DNA of 53,013 nt from an uncultured Anaerolineaceae bacterium (GTDB taxonomy: Bacteria > Chloroflexota > Anaerolineae > Anaerolineales > Anaerolineaceae), in NCBI GenBank assembly GCA_927443345.1, contig CAKMKJ010000055.1:1-53013 (forward strand), in the 5' to 3' direction. How positions within the stretch are numbered: position 1 is the first letter of the stretch; each line of letters opens with the position of its first letter. This document shows positions 16,001-52,802 of this stretch, piece by piece. Both the position numbers and the translations under genes were made by a program. Under the pieces are notes generated by a model. That model did not search any database, was not told the origin of the DNA, and was given only the letters and a program-made list of their open reading frames with translations.

Positions 16001-17326
16001 TTACACCCTCTTAACCACCACCTTCAACCCTTCTGTCCTCACCACTTCCACCAGATCATTCGCCTTGATCGCATGTTCACCCTCCACCAGTTTCGCGGAC
16101 CAGCGCTCACCCGCCACCTGCACGATACCGGTCGGGTTGATCTCGGTCACGGCCAGACCGCTGCGCCCCACCAGCGCGGATTGACCCGTAATAACCGGTG
16201 TCTTCATTGCGCGGACGGCGATCATCACAAGTGTAAAGAAGGTAGCACCGGTGAACACGCCCATGCCTATCACCAACGGCACAGAGACGCGGCCAAATAC
16301 AGGCATTTCTGCAGAGTTAAACAACACCAACGCACCGATGATGAAGGTCACAACCCCGGCTACGGTCAACGCCCCATGCGTAGGTGCTTTAATATCCAAA
16401 ATAAACAAGATAAATGAAATACCAATCAAAACCAATCCAAACCAGTTGACCGGCAGAATACCCAGTCCATACCCAGCCAACGCCAACAGGATGGCACCGA
16501 AGAAACCAGCCACCCAGCCTCCGGGTTGTGAAAGTTCGATCAGGATGGCCTGCACACCCAATGACAGTAACACAAAAACGATATTGGGGTTTACAAGCGC
16601 GCCTAAAAGGTTTTCGATAAACGTGGCTTTCACCACAACCACTTGAGCATTGGCGGTGTGAATCACCACTTTGTTGCCGTCCATGTCATAAGTCTGCCCA
16701 TCGATTTGGGCGAGCAGATCGTTCACATCTTTTGCAATAAAATCCACCATGTTTACAGCCAGAGCCTCATTGGCGCTGGCAGCTTTGGCATCCTGTATGG
16801 ATGATTCAGCCAGGGCAACGGCATCTGCACCACGACGCTCTGCCAAGGCGCGCGCACTGGCTTTGAGAATTTCCTTGGTTTTCGCCTCCATGGTGGCGTC
16901 AATATCTTCGCCTTGAGCCCCAACCGGGCTGGCCGCGCCTATTACCGAACCAGGGCTCATGGCAGCATAGTCCCCAGCAAGGACGATTAACGTCCCGGCC
17001 GACGCTGCCATCGCACCCCGCGGCGCAACATACACGGCTACAGGTACGGGGCTGGCTAAAATCTGCTGGATGAGATTGTTCATTATTTCAACTGAACCGC
17101 CGGGCGTGTTGACCTCAATCACGATCAGGTCCGCGTCGAGATTGACAGCCTGGTCAACGCCGCGCTGCAGATACGTCCGCCAAACGGGGGTCAGCGGTCC
17201 GTTGAAGTTCATTGAGACCACTACAGGGGCATCCGACTGGGCAATAACCGGTTTCGGTGCCAGGGGGATGAATGACAACGCTAAAAGCGTGAATAAGAGA
17301 ATTTTAAGGGTTCGTTTTGTGTTCAT
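16001..17326 (-). CDS. NfeD-family membrane-bound serine protease (ClpP-class)
   Basis: Membrane protein of 441 residues with the full NfeD1b layout. A signal peptide (residues 1-29, ending VIAQS) is followed by a ClpP-like domain (about 30-235) with LIVIEVNTPGGSVEIMNNLI, the catalytic Ser in AMAASAGTL and a candidate Lys in AKTKEILKASARALA. Four or five helices follow (about 240-370), then a C-terminal OB-fold (SALVGRSGLAVTEINPTG). In studied homologues the protease cleaves membrane proteins such as stomatin/SPFH partners. No stomatin gene is next to it here. Its upstream region is occupied by the 70-bp repeat array, so its promoter may be unusual. Confidence 0.92.
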   Translation of the reverse strand: MNTKRTLKILLFTLLALSFIPLAPKPVIAQSDAPVVVSMNFNGPLTPVWRTYLQRGVDQAVNLDADLIVIEVNTPGGSVEIMNNLIQQILASPVPVAVYVAPRGAMAASAGTLIVLAGDYAAMSPGSVIGAASPVGAQGEDIDATMEAKTKEILKASARALAERRGADAVALAESSIQDAKAASANEALAVNMVDFIAKDVNDLLAQIDGQTYDMDGNKVVIHTANAQVVVVKATFIENLLGALVNPNIVFVLLSLGVQAILIELSQPGGWVAGFFGAILLALAGYGLGILPVNWFGLVLIGISFILFILDIKAPTHGALTVAGVVTFIIGALVLFNSAEMPVFGRVSVPLVIGMGVFTGATFFTLVMIAVRAMKTPVITGQSALVGRSGLAVTEINPTGIVQVAGERWSAKLVEGEHAIKANDLVEVVRTEGLKVVVKRV

Positions 17327-17360
17327 GGTTTCATTATAGCAAATTGTAAAAACCTTTTCT

Positions 17361-17695
17361 TAACCACGAAATTCACAGAAATTTTTAAAAAGAAGTTCAA
17401 AAATACGAAAACCAAGAACAAAAACATTCTTAACCACGAAACTCACAGAAATTTATAAAATGAAGTTCAAAAATACGAAAACCAAGAACAAAAACATTCT
17501 TAACCACGAAACTCACAGAAATTTATAAAAAGAAGTTCAAAAATACGAAAATCAAGAACAAAAACATTCTTAACTACAATAATTGCATAAATATCTAAAA
17601 GAAGTTCAAATAACGAAAACAAGAACAAAAAAAAATCAACCACTAATAACACGAAATTGTCTAAAAAGAATTTCAAAGATCAAAAATAGAATCTT
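17361..17695. repeat. Tandem array, 70-bp period, left side of GxxExxY module
   Basis: Units starting TAACCACGAA begin at 17361, 17431 and 17501, exactly 70 bases apart and nearly identical. They are followed by a degenerate unit at 17571 and a more decayed one from about 17641. The sequence is A/T-rich with the recurrent blocks AACCACGAA, CACAGAAATTT and GAAGTTCAAAAATACGAAA. It has no coding potential and lies between the NfeD gene start and the GxxExxY gene end. The outermost 40 bases match the inverted right-hand array end at 18371-18410. Confidence 0.9.
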
Positions 17696-17710
17696 TTCCA
17701 CAACCAATGT

Positions 17711-18103
17711 TCATAATATCACTCTCTCAACTGTTGCTCTTGGATAATGTCCGAAGTTCACTAAAAGTCCGAGGCGAAGTTTTGACACCTTCAAGTAGTT
17801 GAGGAGTTGGGCTTTGTGCTCTTCACATGTATCTTTAGTTGCTTTTAATTCCAGAATAATTTTTCCAAAACAAAGAAAATCTGGACGAAACACTTGATTT
17901 AGCACAAAACCTTTGTACTCAATTGTCATTTCAGATTGTGATTTATAAGGAATTTCTCGTAGTTCAAACTCTTTTGTAAGAGCCCCTTGATAGACCCCTT
18001 CAGTGAATCCACATCCTAATTCTCTATATACCTCAAAGATTGCTCCTTGAATCAAAAAACATTCCTCTTTATATAGGATTTTCGTACTTAAGTCAGAACC
18101 CAT
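17711..18103 (-). CDS. GxxExxY protein, PD-(D/E)XK nuclease-like
   Basis: Protein of 130 residues with a very good ribosome site (AGGAGGGAATT before the ATG). The family hallmark occurs near residue 30: GCGFTEGVYQGAL. A nuclease-type core follows: FRPDFLCFGKIILELKA, giving the PD and ELK parts of the PD-(D/E)XK active-site pattern, so a metal-dependent nuclease fold is likely. Members of this family (PDDEXK_3, TIGR04256) are also found inside intervening sequences of rRNA genes; the cellular role is unknown. Here the gene is flanked on both sides by repeat arrays in opposite orientation and is more A/T-rich than its neighbours, which suggests an acquired module. Confidence 0.9.
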   Translation of the reverse strand: MGSDLSTKILYKEECFLIQGAIFEVYRELGCGFTEGVYQGALTKEFELREIPYKSQSEMTIEYKGFVLNQVFRPDFLCFGKIILELKATKDTCEEHKAQLLNYLKVSKLRLGLLVNFGHYPRATVERVIL

Positions 18104-18125
18104 AATTCCCTCCTATAAATAAAAC

Positions 18126-18410
18126 TCAATTACTCGGGTTATTGATATATAAATAAGCTTTTTGTTTTTGTACTTTTTAGTTTGTTTGAATTTTCCTTTA
18201 AAATGTTTATGCTGCGTGGTTACAAGTATTGCCAATTTTCATTGGTTTAATATAAACAGATTCCTTTTTTGGTTTGATTGCACTTTCCTTTAAAATTGTT
18301 AGTGCTATCGCGGTTACAAGTATTGCCAATTTTTCCTTGGTTTAATTTGAACCAGAATTTTTTGGTTTGTTTGCACTTTCCTTTAAAAATTTTCGTGCCC
18401 TTCGTGGTTA
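18126..18410. repeat. Tandem array, 94-bp period, right side of GxxExxY module
   Basis: The block GGTTACAAGTATTGCCAATTTT occurs at about 18218 and 18312, 94 bases apart. The related block CGTGGTTAAAA occurs a further 94 bases on at about 18404. Shared internal blocks are TTTGGTTTG and TTTCCTTTAAAA. A more decayed unit precedes these. The units read TTCGTGGTTA, that is, inverted relative to TAACCACGAA in the left array. No coding sequence. It ends 14 bases before the herA-like gene's last codon. Confidence 0.85.
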
Positions 18411-18423
18411 AAATAGGTTTTTT

Positions 18424-20151
18424 TTAAAACCCTAACTCCTTCAGATTCTGATCCACATTGCGCGAACCACCACGAGGCAGCAACTCATCCCAGAATTTTT
18501 GATCGTAGCGGCGTGAACGAACCAGAATAGGCATTGGCACACCCCAGCCCAATAGCACGACTTCTTCTTTGGGCTGCAGGCGAGCCAGCATGCCGCGTAA
18601 GGCATCCCGCCCGGCCAGGCCGGAGAGTACCGCGGCCACGTCACTTTCATCCCCGAGCCAGCCGGAGACGCGTGTACCCAATTGGGACATGACTTCGTCA
18701 TAGATTTGAGACGGACGCTGGTCAATGATCAGCAGCGTAACATAATACTTGCGCATTTCACGGGCGATGGTGCTGAACGAAGTCTGCGAAGCCATCTCAC
18801 GGTTGAGCAGCTTGTGCGCTTCTTCCACTGCAATCACCAGCGGACGCGGTTCCGCTTTGCCGTGGCTGCGGAAATCGTTGGTGCTCTCCTCCCACGCGTC
18901 GCGGATTTTGCGCGTCAGCAGGTTCGAGACCAGCAGATAATCCAGATCGGATTCGTAATCGCCAAAAGATAAAATAACATGCTGACCGGCTTGCAGCGCT
19001 TCAATTACATTCTTGAGCGGATCGGCGCCGGCGGTTTCTTCAACAATATACGGACAGGTGAAGACGCGTCCCAGTTTGCTGCGCAATCCTTCTGCAGCGG
19101 CAACGTTGACCCCTACCTGGTTGGCCCAAAAAGCCACGCTGTCAGGCGCATGCACCTTTTTGCCGTCGCCGTCCGTTTCCATCGCCCCCACTACCATCTT
19201 TTTGAATTCGCTGAACCATTTAGTCATGCCAAAAGAGTGGATCAGCGCGTCCAGCGTGGTGGAGGTGGTGTCGCGCAGATTGAGTTCGCGCGCCAACAGT
19301 TCAATATCCGCGGGTTGGATGTCAGATTCGTTGATCTCAAGTGTTAGGTCAGGCGTTTTGCCGCGAATGGTACTCTTGCGCCCCAAGCCGACTACGCGCA
19401 CGCGTGAGGCGAACTTGCTGCGCAGCCCTACCACCGGCTGACCGGTATCCGAGGCGATGTCGTCAAAGCCGTACTCGTTGTGCATGTCAAAGACCAGCAC
19501 CGAAGCGGCGTTGTGTTCGATCAGCCCCGCCAGGATGATGCGCGTCAAGAAAGATTTGCCCGATCCGGTGGCTCCGAAGATGCCGGCACTGCGCTGCACA
19601 AACTTATCCAGGTTAATGCACACGGGGTGATCCTGCTCGCGTGTCTTGCCGATCTCAAAGAACCCCTTCTGCCCAGGTTCGCCGAAGATTTCGGCCACAT
19701 CCCCGGCGGAGGCTAGCCTCGCTAATGAGTGGTGCGATGGCACGGTCTTGATCGGCAGCGGACGGGGCAGGTTCTCATTCTGGTGCGCTTTCGTCCAGGC
19801 TTCGTAATCGGGTGAATCCAGTTCGGGGCCGCGCTCAAGCATCAGCGCGGGCAGCACCTCAAGGTTGGTATATAACGTCTGCTCGTTGAGCAGGCGGGTG
19901 ACCAGAGGCGAGAGTCTGTTTTCGGCGGGTTTCTCAGCATAACGCGGATCGGAAGCCCCGAGCTGCAGATCAGTCACTAATCCGTAGAACTGCCAATTGC
20001 CGCTTTCGAGCACCACAAAACCGCCCTCCTGCACCTGGTCTGAAGGAACGGTGAGGCGCACGAAGAGGTTGGCCTTAAGACCGCCGCCCACCACGTATCC
20101 AATAGGCTGACCGCCTGATGTTTCAAAAGTAAACTTATTCAAATTGCTCAT
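18424..20151 (-). CDS. herA: HerA-like DNA translocase/helicase ATPase
   Basis: FtsK/HerA-superfamily ATPase, 575 residues. The first about 80 residues are a HAS-barrel domain. The RecA-like core has Walker A GATGSGKS (193-200), Walker B-type LVIAVEEAHKLL near 440, and downstream REMRKYYV and IDQRPSQI, matching HerA's sensor and arginine-finger region. HerA forms a hexamer that threads double-stranded DNA into the NurA nuclease for end resection in archaea; bacterial relatives also serve in phage defence. It is the third gene of a tight NurA / HAS-barrel-like / HerA operon; only 13 bases separate it from the middle gene. The pairing with NurA favours DNA repair over HerA-Sir2-type defence. 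Confidence 0.88.
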   Translation of the reverse strand: MSNLNKFTFETSGGQPIGYVVGGGLKANLFVRLTVPSDQVQEGGFVVLESGNWQFYGLVTDLQLGASDPRYAEKPAENRLSPLVTRLLNEQTLYTNLEVLPALMLERGPELDSPDYEAWTKAHQNENLPRPLPIKTVPSHHSLARLASAGDVAEIFGEPGQKGFFEIGKTREQDHPVCINLDKFVQRSAGIFGATGSGKSFLTRIILAGLIEHNAASVLVFDMHNEYGFDDIASDTGQPVVGLRSKFASRVRVVGLGRKSTIRGKTPDLTLEINESDIQPADIELLARELNLRDTTSTTLDALIHSFGMTKWFSEFKKMVVGAMETDGDGKKVHAPDSVAFWANQVGVNVAAAEGLRSKLGRVFTCPYIVEETAGADPLKNVIEALQAGQHVILSFGDYESDLDYLLVSNLLTRKIRDAWEESTNDFRSHGKAEPRPLVIAVEEAHKLLNREMASQTSFSTIAREMRKYYVTLLIIDQRPSQIYDEVMSQLGTRVSGWLGDESDVAAVLSGLAGRDALRGMLARLQPKEEVVLLGWGVPMPILVRSRRYDQKFWDELLPRGGSRNVDQNLKELGF

Positions 20152-48918: not shown

Positions 48919-49446
48919 ATGGAAGAACCTGCTTCACCTTACGTCCATTATTACAACCGGGGCGTGAATAAAGAAATTATCTTTTTCACTTCTGATAACT
49001 ATTTGCTTTTAATTAGAAAGTTAACAGAATATATTAAGGAATATCAAATTGAATTAATAGCTTTTTGCCTGATGCCCAATCACTATCACATTCTCCTCAA
49101 ACATGAGAATCAAAATGATGGGTCAAAATTAATTCAACGACTTTTCAATAGTTACACACAAGCCATCAACAAAAGGTATTCAAGAGTTGGAACATTGTTC
49201 CAGGGCAATGTAAAAAAACGCTTTATCGAAGATGATGATTACTTGGCAGAAACTATCAAATATATTCATCTCAACCCTGTAAAAGCAGGTCTTTGTGATA
49301 AACCGGAAAATTGGGAATATTCTGATTATCGAGAATGGATTGGGCTTGACGAAACAATAAGAAATATTTCTGTTGAACGTGATAACATATTTGGAAGTAC
49401 AAAAGATTATGAAGAGTTGATTAACTTTGAATACCAAAAGTTTTAA
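48919..49446 (+). CDS. REP-associated tyrosine transposase (RAYT, IS200-like)
   Basis: HUH-type transposase of 175 residues. The paired-His motif is MPNHYHILLK near residue 55, a Tyr follows in LFNSYTQAINKRYSR, and the C-terminal family motif is YIHLNPVKAGLC...NWEYSDY. These enzymes cut and join single-stranded DNA at REP palindromes. The gene is much more A/T-rich than the flanking gat genes and sits between gatA/CAP and gatB, so it was probably acquired. A REP-like palindrome lies 5 bases after its stop. Confidence 0.92.
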   Translation: MEEPASPYVHYYNRGVNKEIIFFTSDNYLLLIRKLTEYIKEYQIELIAFCLMPNHYHILLKHENQNDGSKLIQRLFNSYTQAINKRYSRVGTLFQGNVKKRFIEDDDYLAETIKYIHLNPVKAGLCDKPENWEYSDYREWIGLDETIRNISVERDNIFGSTKDYEELINFEYQKF

Positions 49447-50996: not shown

Positions 50997-52802
50997 TTAT
51001 TGCTTATTAAAAAACTGCTCAAGTTTGGTATATAAAGCCGGGTTTTCATTCAGCATGCGTCGATCGCCGCAGGTGAAATTAATAAACAACGAAATCACAA
51101 TCGTCGCTGCGGATAACAAGCAGATGGCAATCAGAAGCAGCCCACGGTTCAATCTTGAATATCGCGACCGTTCAATCACCCCCATCAACAACACACAAGT
51201 GATAATCAACAATATAGGATAATAATCCGCCAGATAGCGCATGGTTGAAAACAAATACATCATATTAATGAGAAAGGTGGTCAGAAATCCACCGATGAGG
51301 GTTACCCACATCCAAATTGGCATACCTGGCCGCGGATTATCTTGTTGAGTGATAGGCGTCTCTTTCACCCAACGCCAGCCCTTTCGCAGCAGCGCCCAGG
51401 CCGGCACAATCAACAACCACAAAAACGGAACACAATAAAGAATTCCGGTTATTTGCTCACCAAAGAAATAATCCTTGGGGTAGCGAATAAACCTGGTCCA
51501 ACTGTTATCGGCTGTAGCGATAAAAAATGGAAAGCTGCCGGGCGTAAACGCGAAGGGTTGCAAGAGATTGAGATAGAGATTTGGGAGGATGTATCTGAAG
51601 GCAAATAACTGACTGAGATCCTCAGGCAGCGCATCACCGGTTAATTGATATCGCAATCCAGTTTCAAAGATGCTGCCAAAACGGGTGAAATTGAACCAGG
51701 CTATCCCTGCTGCAAAAACCACCAGCGGAAATAAAAACATCATGATATCCAGCCAATAAGTTTTTTGGCGAATAGCTTTTTTAATCATCAAAACAAGCGC
51801 AATAAAAACCACAAAAATTACGGTAAACACGATACTGGTTCTCGAACCCACTGCCGCACCAAACGAAAAACCGGCCAGAAGAAACCATCCCCTTTGAGGG
51901 GTTGCGGAATCCAATCCACGGATTAAGGCATAAAACCCCATGATCAGGAAAAACTGGCAAGAGGCGATCGCCGTCTCATATACATTGGGGCGATTCACCA
52001 GCCAAAAGAGCGGCGTTGCCAAACCTCCCAACAGTGTAAAAATGCCCATCGTCCAGGCTGGGACGGATGGAAAATATTTCTTCCGAAGAAAAGCCAATAT
52101 CAATGCGATAAAAATCGTGATGCCGATTACAAAAAATAACAACAGGTGTTGATCCTCCACCACTACGGGATGAATAATTTTGACTAGCGCTGCTATCAGC
52201 GCAGGAACCGCCCCCCAATAGAGGTAATAATTTCCCTGGTAATACGAAGCATCCCAAATGAATTTAATTCCTGTTCTGGCTCTCCAATCGTATGGATCCG
52301 CCAGTTTCGCCAGCTCCGCCGGTGGTTTGATGGTGAGAGAAGTTTGACCTGCCAGAAACCCGTCTGCCTGCAAATCAAAATAATTTGAATATCCGCGAAA
52401 ATGGAACATGTTCCCGCTGGTTATGTACCAAACCGAGCACAAAAACACAATCGCTAATGAGATAGCACTACAAAACATCGGTTGTGAAAAGAGAGATTTT
52501 TTATCAGAATCGACTGCTTTTTTTGAATCCGCTGATGGTTTGTTGTAATGCCCCCAAACTTTTGCGATTTTGTCAAAAAAGATTGAAAAATGAAAGTGGC
52601 GGTTCACACAACTTAAGCCAAGCACCAATAAGGGTGCCAGTAGCAGTAAAACGCCAAACCCTGCCAGGATTTTCCGTGAAGTTCCAAGTGTTACATTATT
52701 ATCCAAACCAAGTTGATAAGCAAAAAGCGCAACCCCAAGACAGGTGATCCCCGCTAAAACAATCAAGGTCGTGGCCACGATTTTGAAAATTCGAAATCTC
52801 AT
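50997..52802 (-). CDS. Large polytopic membrane protein, GT-C glycosyltransferase-like
   Basis: Protein of 601 residues with about twelve to fourteen helices. A first outer loop (residues about 145-200, YFDLQADGFLAGQTSL then WDASYYQGNYYLYWGAVPAL) is followed by densely packed helices, as in GT-C glycosyltransferases or related membrane enzymes. No precise family is assigned. The start has no strong ribosome site visible. Convergent with gatB. Its role is inferred to be in glycan or envelope synthesis. Confidence 0.7.
   Translation of the reverse strand: MRFRIFKIVATTLIVLAGITCLGVALFAYQLGLDNNVTLGTSRKILAGFGVLLLLAPLLVLGLSCVNRHFHFSIFFDKIAKVWGHYNKPSADSKKAVDSDKKSLFSQPMFCSAISLAIVFLCSVWYITSGNMFHFRGYSNYFDLQADGFLAGQTSLTIKPPAELAKLADPYDWRARTGIKFIWDASYYQGNYYLYWGAVPALIAALVKIIHPVVVEDQHLLLFFVIGITIFIALILAFLRKKYFPSVPAWTMGIFTLLGGLATPLFWLVNRPNVYETAIASCQFFLIMGFYALIRGLDSATPQRGWFLLAGFSFGAAVGSRTSIVFTVIFVVFIALVLMIKKAIRQKTYWLDIMMFLFPLVVFAAGIAWFNFTRFGSIFETGLRYQLTGDALPEDLSQLFAFRYILPNLYLNLLQPFAFTPGSFPFFIATADNSWTRFIRYPKDYFFGEQITGILYCVPFLWLLIVPAWALLRKGWRWVKETPITQQDNPRPGMPIWMWVTLIGGFLTTFLINMMYLFSTMRYLADYYPILLIITCVLLMGVIERSRYSRLNRGLLLIAICLLSAATIVISLFINFTCGDRRMLNENPALYTKLEQFFNKQ

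Follow-up and report, generated by a model that had tools for sequence, protein, structure and literature searches.

In the window, by which we mean the whole stretch of 53,013 nucleotides analysed here, from an uncultured Anaerolineaceae bacterium, a small gene of the GxxExxY family lies between nfeD and a herA-like gene and is flanked by two repeat arrays which face one another. The family names given to genes here come from HMM matches and are to be read as annotation. The features of the locus are as follows.

16001-17326, minus strand: nfeD (NfeD), neighbour outside the module
17348-17411, plus strand: left half of the best outer inverted repeat, pairing with 18360-18423
17357-17680, plus strand: left arm array of 70-bp units, three good copies with decayed ones toward the gene, inward-reading
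17360-17370, plus strand: outermost left terminus TTAACCACGAA, recurring at 17430-17440 and 17500-17510
17711-18103, minus strand: GxxExxY / PDDEXK_3 nuclease gene, 130 aa, from ORF, profile match, alignment and fold model
18174-18410, minus strand: right arm array of ~93-bp units, 2.6 copies, inward-reading on the minus strand
18360-18423, minus strand: right half of the best outer inverted repeat, pairing with 17348-17411
18401-18411, minus strand: outermost right terminus TTAACCACGAA, 12 bases from the herA stop codon
18424-20151, minus strand: herA-like ATPase (DUF87), neighbour outside the module

A repeat search gives the outer inverted repeat arms of 64 nt which are 75% complementary. 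Positions 17361-17400 agree with the complement of 18371-18410 in 31 of 40 bases, including an identical run of ten at the start; this comparison, taken from the first-pass annotation, was reproduced exactly on recomputation. When both AT-rich stretches were redrawn 300 times under a first-order Markov model, one draw matched as well. Tandem Repeats Finder assigns the left array a period of 70 bp and 4.0 copies (17357-17631) and the right array a period of 93 bp and 2.6 copies (18174-18410), the second period having earlier been put at 94 bp. Independent divergence or expansion of the two sides, as first suggested, agrees with these different periods, but the outer ends are still matched. Between the outer arms the nuclease gene is the only ORF of at least 80 aa, and neither integrase nor transposase is present there. 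Elsewhere in the window, at 49009-49266 on the plus strand, there is a match to a Y1_Tnp (IS200/RAYT-type) gene, with no TTAACCACGAA in the surrounding stretch.

The terminus belongs to a repeat family dispersed in the same genome. TTAACCACGAA has 50 exact matches in the 3.67-Mb assembly against two for the reversed control, while the shorter AACCACGAA alone is weakly informative (85 matches against 65). An alignment of 43 copies gives an extended form of approximately TTAACCACGAAANACACRAAAA followed by an A-rich stretch. Two of the three GxxExxY genes in the genome have arms of the TTAACCACGAAANACACRAAAA type; the third, on contig C53, has different arms, beginning TCTCGCAAAG. The isolated arrays which the first-pass annotation proposed to look for do exist, and gene-less facing pairs of ~120-210 bp are found on contigs C28, C35, C36, C43, C66 and C82. 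At the 40 sites with full context, an inverted partner (score of at least 14) lies on the inward side in ten cases, some of them counting both ends of a single pair, and on the outward side in one; the rate at random places is 6 in 108. Tandem arm units recur every ~200-216 bp at C9:397-821, C66:70-417, C82:16089-16369 and C36:11337-11560; three of the four stand at the ends of contigs and look like parts of longer arrays that the assembly cut short. On contig C36 two facing arms are 1.5 kb apart; the reading frames in that interval are not put forward here as cargo of another kind.

The GxxExxY protein

By profile and motif the window gene is a clear member of its family. The protein matches PF13366 (PDDEXK_3) with an E-value of 1.2e-38 and 132.5 bits (curated cut-off 22), and TIGR04256 (GxxExxY) with 3.8e-38 and 130.4 bits (curated cut-off 35). 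PF13366 is its sole Pfam match at E of 1 or below, the S23 four-helix-bundle domain being absent. In an alignment of 70 proteins G32, E35, Y38, D75, K87, Q99 and Y103 are invariant and E85 nearly so. The nuclease residues E35, D75, E85-x-K87 and Q99-xxx-Y103 are conserved in the same alignment, and the last of these we take to be the motif named QxxxY; the nuclease pattern first read from the sequence between the facing arrays is thereby borne out.

The AlphaFold2 model of the protein (pLDDT 93, pTM 0.85) has as its best fold match SSO0001 (4ic1; Foldseek E 1.9e-4), which is presumably a Cas4. The two superpose with a Z-score of 9.6 over 98 residues and an rmsd of 3.4, the next-best match reaching Z 7.4. 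At the level of sequence, a search of solved structures gave a best E of 0.15 for the window protein, and the Cas4 profiles in a defence library match it weakly (E 0.026). GxxExxY resembles the Cas4/RecB-type nucleases in this fold and in the D...ExK...QxxxY residues, but has only 130 aa. Cas4 carries an iron-sulphur cluster; cysteines are absent from the invariant and nearly invariant columns of the 70 proteins, so there is no sign of a Cas4-type cluster. The predicted fold is therefore that of a minimal Cas4/RecB-like PD-(D/E)XK nuclease.

Such a protein might be of the defence or toxin type, with the arms serving as self-markers or regulatory sites and not as transposition ends. The Cas4 profile matches point that way, weak as they are. 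The Rpn proteins are likewise PD-(D/E)XK nucleases, and we know of no comparable arms beside their genes. They are reported to be anti-phage (PMC10327210), and as recombination-promoting nucleases (PF04754) they have been linked to DNA mobilisation (PMC5350276), a tie which GxxExxY would share although it belongs to a different Pfam family. A defence role leaves the gene-less arms across genomes unexplained, however, and we find it hard to credit.

Arms and dialects at other loci

Arms were scored as the best inverted match between 300-bp flanks, a score which depends on that flank length, at loci which were either the best-scoring of each search or from multi-copy genomes among the matches listed. 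HerA flanks, PF05635 flanks and displaced windows served as controls. In a first set of 38 loci, 37 of them usable, the median score was 21, against 11 for cross-locus pairs and a maximum of 16 at 27 HerA loci. A set of named loci comprised the best 80 of at least 540 found, four being dropped for short flanks; 47 of the 76 usable ones score 18 or more, against two of 126 windows displaced by 1.6 kb. Arms of separate loci resemble each other, and 10.7% of the pairs formed from the left flank of one locus and the right flank of another accordingly score 18 or more. Pooling gave 197 loci, 174 of them unique and 164 usable; among these best-scoring loci 118 score at least 16, 107 at least 18 and 95 at least 20, and a strong inverted pair (at least 18) is missing at 57. 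The expectation that inverted arms would be met beside other GxxExxY genes was thus upheld.

The gene occurs widely among bacteria and in a small number of archaeal assemblies. By record name, loci with strong arms come from Chloroflexota, Planctomycetota, Bacteroidota, Acidobacteria, Nitrospirota, Beta- and Gammaproteobacteria, Microcystis and Methanothrix, although some of these records may be misbinned, since L189 (Methanothrix) and L192 (Paceibacterota) share identical arms. Near-identical gene copies at different sites, which would be recent duplicates, were not found among the 174 best-scoring unique loci. A consensus protein query matched eight of 72,556 plasmid records and none of 50,697 phage records; in two annotated plasmids, from Bernardetia sp. 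and Bacteroides finegoldii, arms flank the gene on both sides. A narrow search with exact 8-residue peptides of the window protein found nothing related in viral contigs; the annotation of one algal virus does list a GxxExxY protein (PMC12085832). Scarcity on plasmids and the lack of phage matches to the consensus query are more in keeping with REPtron-like chromosomal systems than with an ordinary insertion sequence.

Across phyla the arms share one layout. An outer TT(C/A)ACC is followed inward by boxes of the form C-R-C-N-N-A-R, mostly 9 bp apart, a spacing near one turn of DNA. The box and the permitted range of spacings (8-11 or 8-12) are imposed by the search rule; the terminus, derived from 165 arms with at least three boxes and with little conservation further out, and the peak of arm self-match at lag 9 across the pooled loci are independent of it. 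Chains of at least three boxes occur in none of 46 PF05635 flanks (23 of 31 loci, eight cut by contig ends being excluded) and in none of 44 HerA flanks (22 of 30 loci, six with a GxxExxY match in the locus and two short ones being excluded).

These chains bear on the view that the arms are simple-sequence repeats grown by slippage, with the gene landing in them by chance. The arms do expand in tandem, as in the 70- and 93-bp arrays, and their box units look low-complexity. A gene landing in a repeat would, however, have the same direction on both sides, whereas the flanks mostly face one another: chains of at least three boxes read inward in 166 of 332 flanks and outward in 43, and at 60 of 166 loci the two flanks both point inward, at ten both outward. 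With the outer end of the arms also conserved, slippage seems to us a most unlikely origin.

The last base of the box defines a dialect, and 92 labelled loci are of the G, 23 of the T and four of the A dialect. Typing was possible on both sides at 98 of 168 loci, on one side at 49 and on neither at 21. Left and right dialects agree at 97 of the 98 (shuffle maximum 77), and the first two box spacings are equal on both sides at 47 of 58 loci (shuffle mean 12.4). The 9-spaced G-dialect pattern has no match in the genome of the window, where the arms end in A.

Dialect also follows the protein. On a tree of 174 proteins, limited by few columns and many unresolved forks and with near-copies favouring clustering, dialect changes seven times against 25.1 when shuffled, and none of 200 shuffles was as low. 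The nearest protein of less than 50% identity shares the dialect in 106 of 119 cases (chance 0.64). One residue close to the C-terminus is glycine in 87 of 92 G-dialect proteins, and the residue itself is missing from all 23 T-dialect proteins. Within genomes protein similarity and arm similarity are weakly correlated (rho 0.36, permutation p ~0.06, 31 pairs from 16 genomes), and the dialect signal may therefore in part reflect the shared ancestry of whole elements.

Repeat number, finally, varies with the presence of the gene. Of 298 genomes of the class, 192 carry PF13366. A strict two-box pattern, covering one spacing and one dialect only, has 2851 matches in the 298, against 20 for the reversed control. 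At least one match occurs in 132 of the 192 gene-positive genomes, the other 60 having none, and in 37 of the 106 gene-negative ones; at least ten occur in 52 and one, respectively (Fisher 2e-10, uncorrected for relatedness or completeness). The exception, G138, has 25 matches and no PF13366 gene was found in it. Over the 298 genomes gene and repeat number correlate with rho 0.45, again uncorrected for relatedness and completeness.

One alternative is a passive cassette: a RAYT or IS transposase encoded elsewhere would move it, the arms would be its terminal repeats, and GxxExxY would be no more than frequent cargo. The module does lack a transposase of its own, gene-less pairs exist, and the genome has three Y1_Tnp genes, one of them inside the window. 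However, no TTAACCACGAA with up to one mismatch lies around any of the three, a comparison which covered the Y1 family only; arm dialect follows GxxExxY protein clades and arm numbers depend on the presence of GxxExxY; and the arms beside PF05635, another family of small genes, are of a 7-bp kind. We therefore hold such cargo status to be improbable.

As judged from sequence comparison, the nuclease gene with its matched arms is a recurring unit; its dialect follows the protein, and the number of repeats in a genome is linked to the gene. Scattering of the repeats without preference for GxxExxY genes had been set by the first-pass annotation against its proposal: the repeats are indeed genome-wide and mostly gene-less, yet they show a strong preference for GxxExxY both at the loci and across genomes. 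The proposal of an element rather than a normal gene gains from the recurrence of gene and facing arms. Direct signs of movement were not seen: no target duplication was found at the herA-nfeD site (as already remarked from the sequence) or at the dnaK site, and neither site offered a clean empty counterpart for comparison.

Sites of the arms and their history

A neighbouring ORF, taken mechanically as the longest of at least 100 aa within 400 bp outside the arm, could be assigned for 141 of 152 arms. The neighbour presents its 3' end in 93 cases (median gap 14 bp) and its 5' end in 48 (25 bp). This frequent position just behind stop codons, together with the complementarity of the arms, would suit a role in RNA, as a long stem round the transcript, a terminator or a processing site; a published parallel is the Coxiella 23S intervening sequence, whose 28-bp terminal stem is cut by RNase III (PMC4990558). 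Among the mismatches between the arms, however, G.U-compatible changes in the sense transcript are not in excess: there are 179 of them against 225 of the reverse sort, and the difference (p 0.025) thus runs the other way. Furthermore, of 40 arms in the genome of the window 14 are followed on the inward side by a direct copy (ten on the outward side); many arms, then, belong to tandem arrays and not to stems. A function at the RNA level is thus rather unlikely in our judgement.

The herA site can be followed across relatives, and it has been occupied more than once. Behind herA both the window's genome (G000) and G012 carry a GxxExxY gene, G004 and G005 have related reading frames in which no ATG start was found, and G002 has a distant GxxExxY gene in the opposite orientation with other arms. 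The empty site between nfeD and herA anticipated in relatives did not materialise in clean form: in G001, the nearest relative (HerA 96% identical), the gene is absent, and an apparent left-arm remnant is accompanied by repeats of a 7-bp type. HerA is 95% identical between the window's genome and G012; the window GxxExxY protein has 72% identity to the copy on contig C43 of its own genome and 59% to the G012 gene at the same place. At the dnaK site, read by eye, the element is present in G000 and G012, a gene-less facing pair in G003 and a gene-less 7-bp-type repeat in G001 and G013.

The neighbours of the two sites are exchanged among genomes. The arrangements herA-DUF212 and dnaK-nfeD are found in seven and ten genomes, respectively, and herA-nfeD and dnaK-DUF212 in three and four. 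Elements occupy both swap junctions in G000 (17326-18424 of the window at the herA site, and C43 ~51380-52110) and in G012. A simple inversion as the origin of the swap is contradicted by the gene order in G012 and by the orientation of the two element copies.

Gene-less repeats of the 7-bp type (GAGAACC..., GATTAGT...) were observed at L351 8118-8429, L350 and L064 3225-3389. At the dnaK site of G001 and G013 and the herA site of G001 such repeats stand where relatives have the 9-bp element, so that one site seems to be taken in turn by different small elements.

Relation to known systems and a possible mechanism

REPtrons and TIRtrons consist of a RAYT or TIRYT gene flanked by inverted repeats which are also dispersed without the gene; in the published accounts the repeat type is specific to the gene copy, the repeats lie mostly downstream of genes, and several phyla are represented (PMC3733652; PMC3116915). 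The present module is like them in having a single small gene between inverted repeats, with the repeats dispersed in gene-carrying genomes. Unlike REPtrons, it has a PD-(D/E)XK nuclease (PDDEXK_3) between the repeats and no HUH Y1 transposase, and its arms are direct boxes ~9 bp apart with a TT(C/A)ACC end, where REPtrons have GTAG/CGTC-tagged palindromes; because the HUH transposase and tagged palindromes are absent, it falls outside the REPtron and TIRtron families. It also differs from a classical insertion sequence or transposon, since it encodes neither transposase nor integrase.

A second likeness is to the 23S rRNA intervening sequence and the S23 (PF05635) elements, in which a small gene also lies inside a terminal inverted repeat. 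Many PF05635 genes of the class lie between facing arms (23 of 31 loci scored, median 20). The protein is unrelated, and the PF05635 arms are of 7-bp units such as TCAGCAG and GGTTAGC (loci L123-L153, e.g. L146, L129, L134, L153) without 9-bp box chains; the best-window match at lag 7 is 0.68 in PF05635 flanks against 0.42 in HerA flanks. These four-helix-bundle (23S IVP) elements look like a parallel system, and their 7-bp repeats may, we assume, equal the heptamer repeats of cyanobacteria.

The open-access literature, most subscription papers and bioRxiv preprints lying outside its scope, yielded no account of arms flanking GxxExxY genes; 'PDDEXK_3' is absent from the part searched and 'GxxExxY' is named there in passing only. 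The only bacterial match to arm sequences in it is a Bacteroides fragilis primer, in which the G-dialect arm sequence AACTCTGTGTTCTCTGTGGTG lies, from the invertible promoter region upstream of BF2782 (PMC3090145). Such arms may occur near invertible promoters.

By analogy with REPtrons and TIRtrons, we consider it probable that the module is a system of repeats with a cognate nuclease, resembling them but built around an unrelated enzyme; recognition, cutting and spread are what we infer. The GxxExxY protein would recognise a row of boxes in its own dialect and cut at or near them, and the cut would be repaired from another copy by gene conversion or recombination. Such repair would copy arms or whole elements to new intergenic places, often just behind a stop codon, and would also let arms grow in tandem, the gene-less pairs being non-autonomous passengers. 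The system may be old and largely vertically inherited, decaying and turning over at favoured sites.

Taken as a whole the module has the look of a home-grown type of mobile DNA not described before. It is attractive to consider, as a broader proposal to which we give somewhat less than even weight, that it represents a separate class of mobile DNA in bacteria and archaea: its sole protein would be a Cas4-like nuclease reading helically phased boxes in its own terminal repeats and spreading them, with or without the gene, by cut and repair and with no transposase, and beside it would stand a parallel four-helix-bundle class with a 7-bp code.

PF13366 genes, common as they are in the class, are barely mentioned in the open-access literature searched. 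If the arms are dialect-specific targets, GxxExxY genes gain a testable function in sequence-specific arm recognition. This would explain the intergenic low-complexity CACAGAG, CACGAAG and CACAGAT repeats of many genomes, and would offer a transposase-free counterpart to the REP-RAYT systems together with a natural set of nuclease and site pairs.
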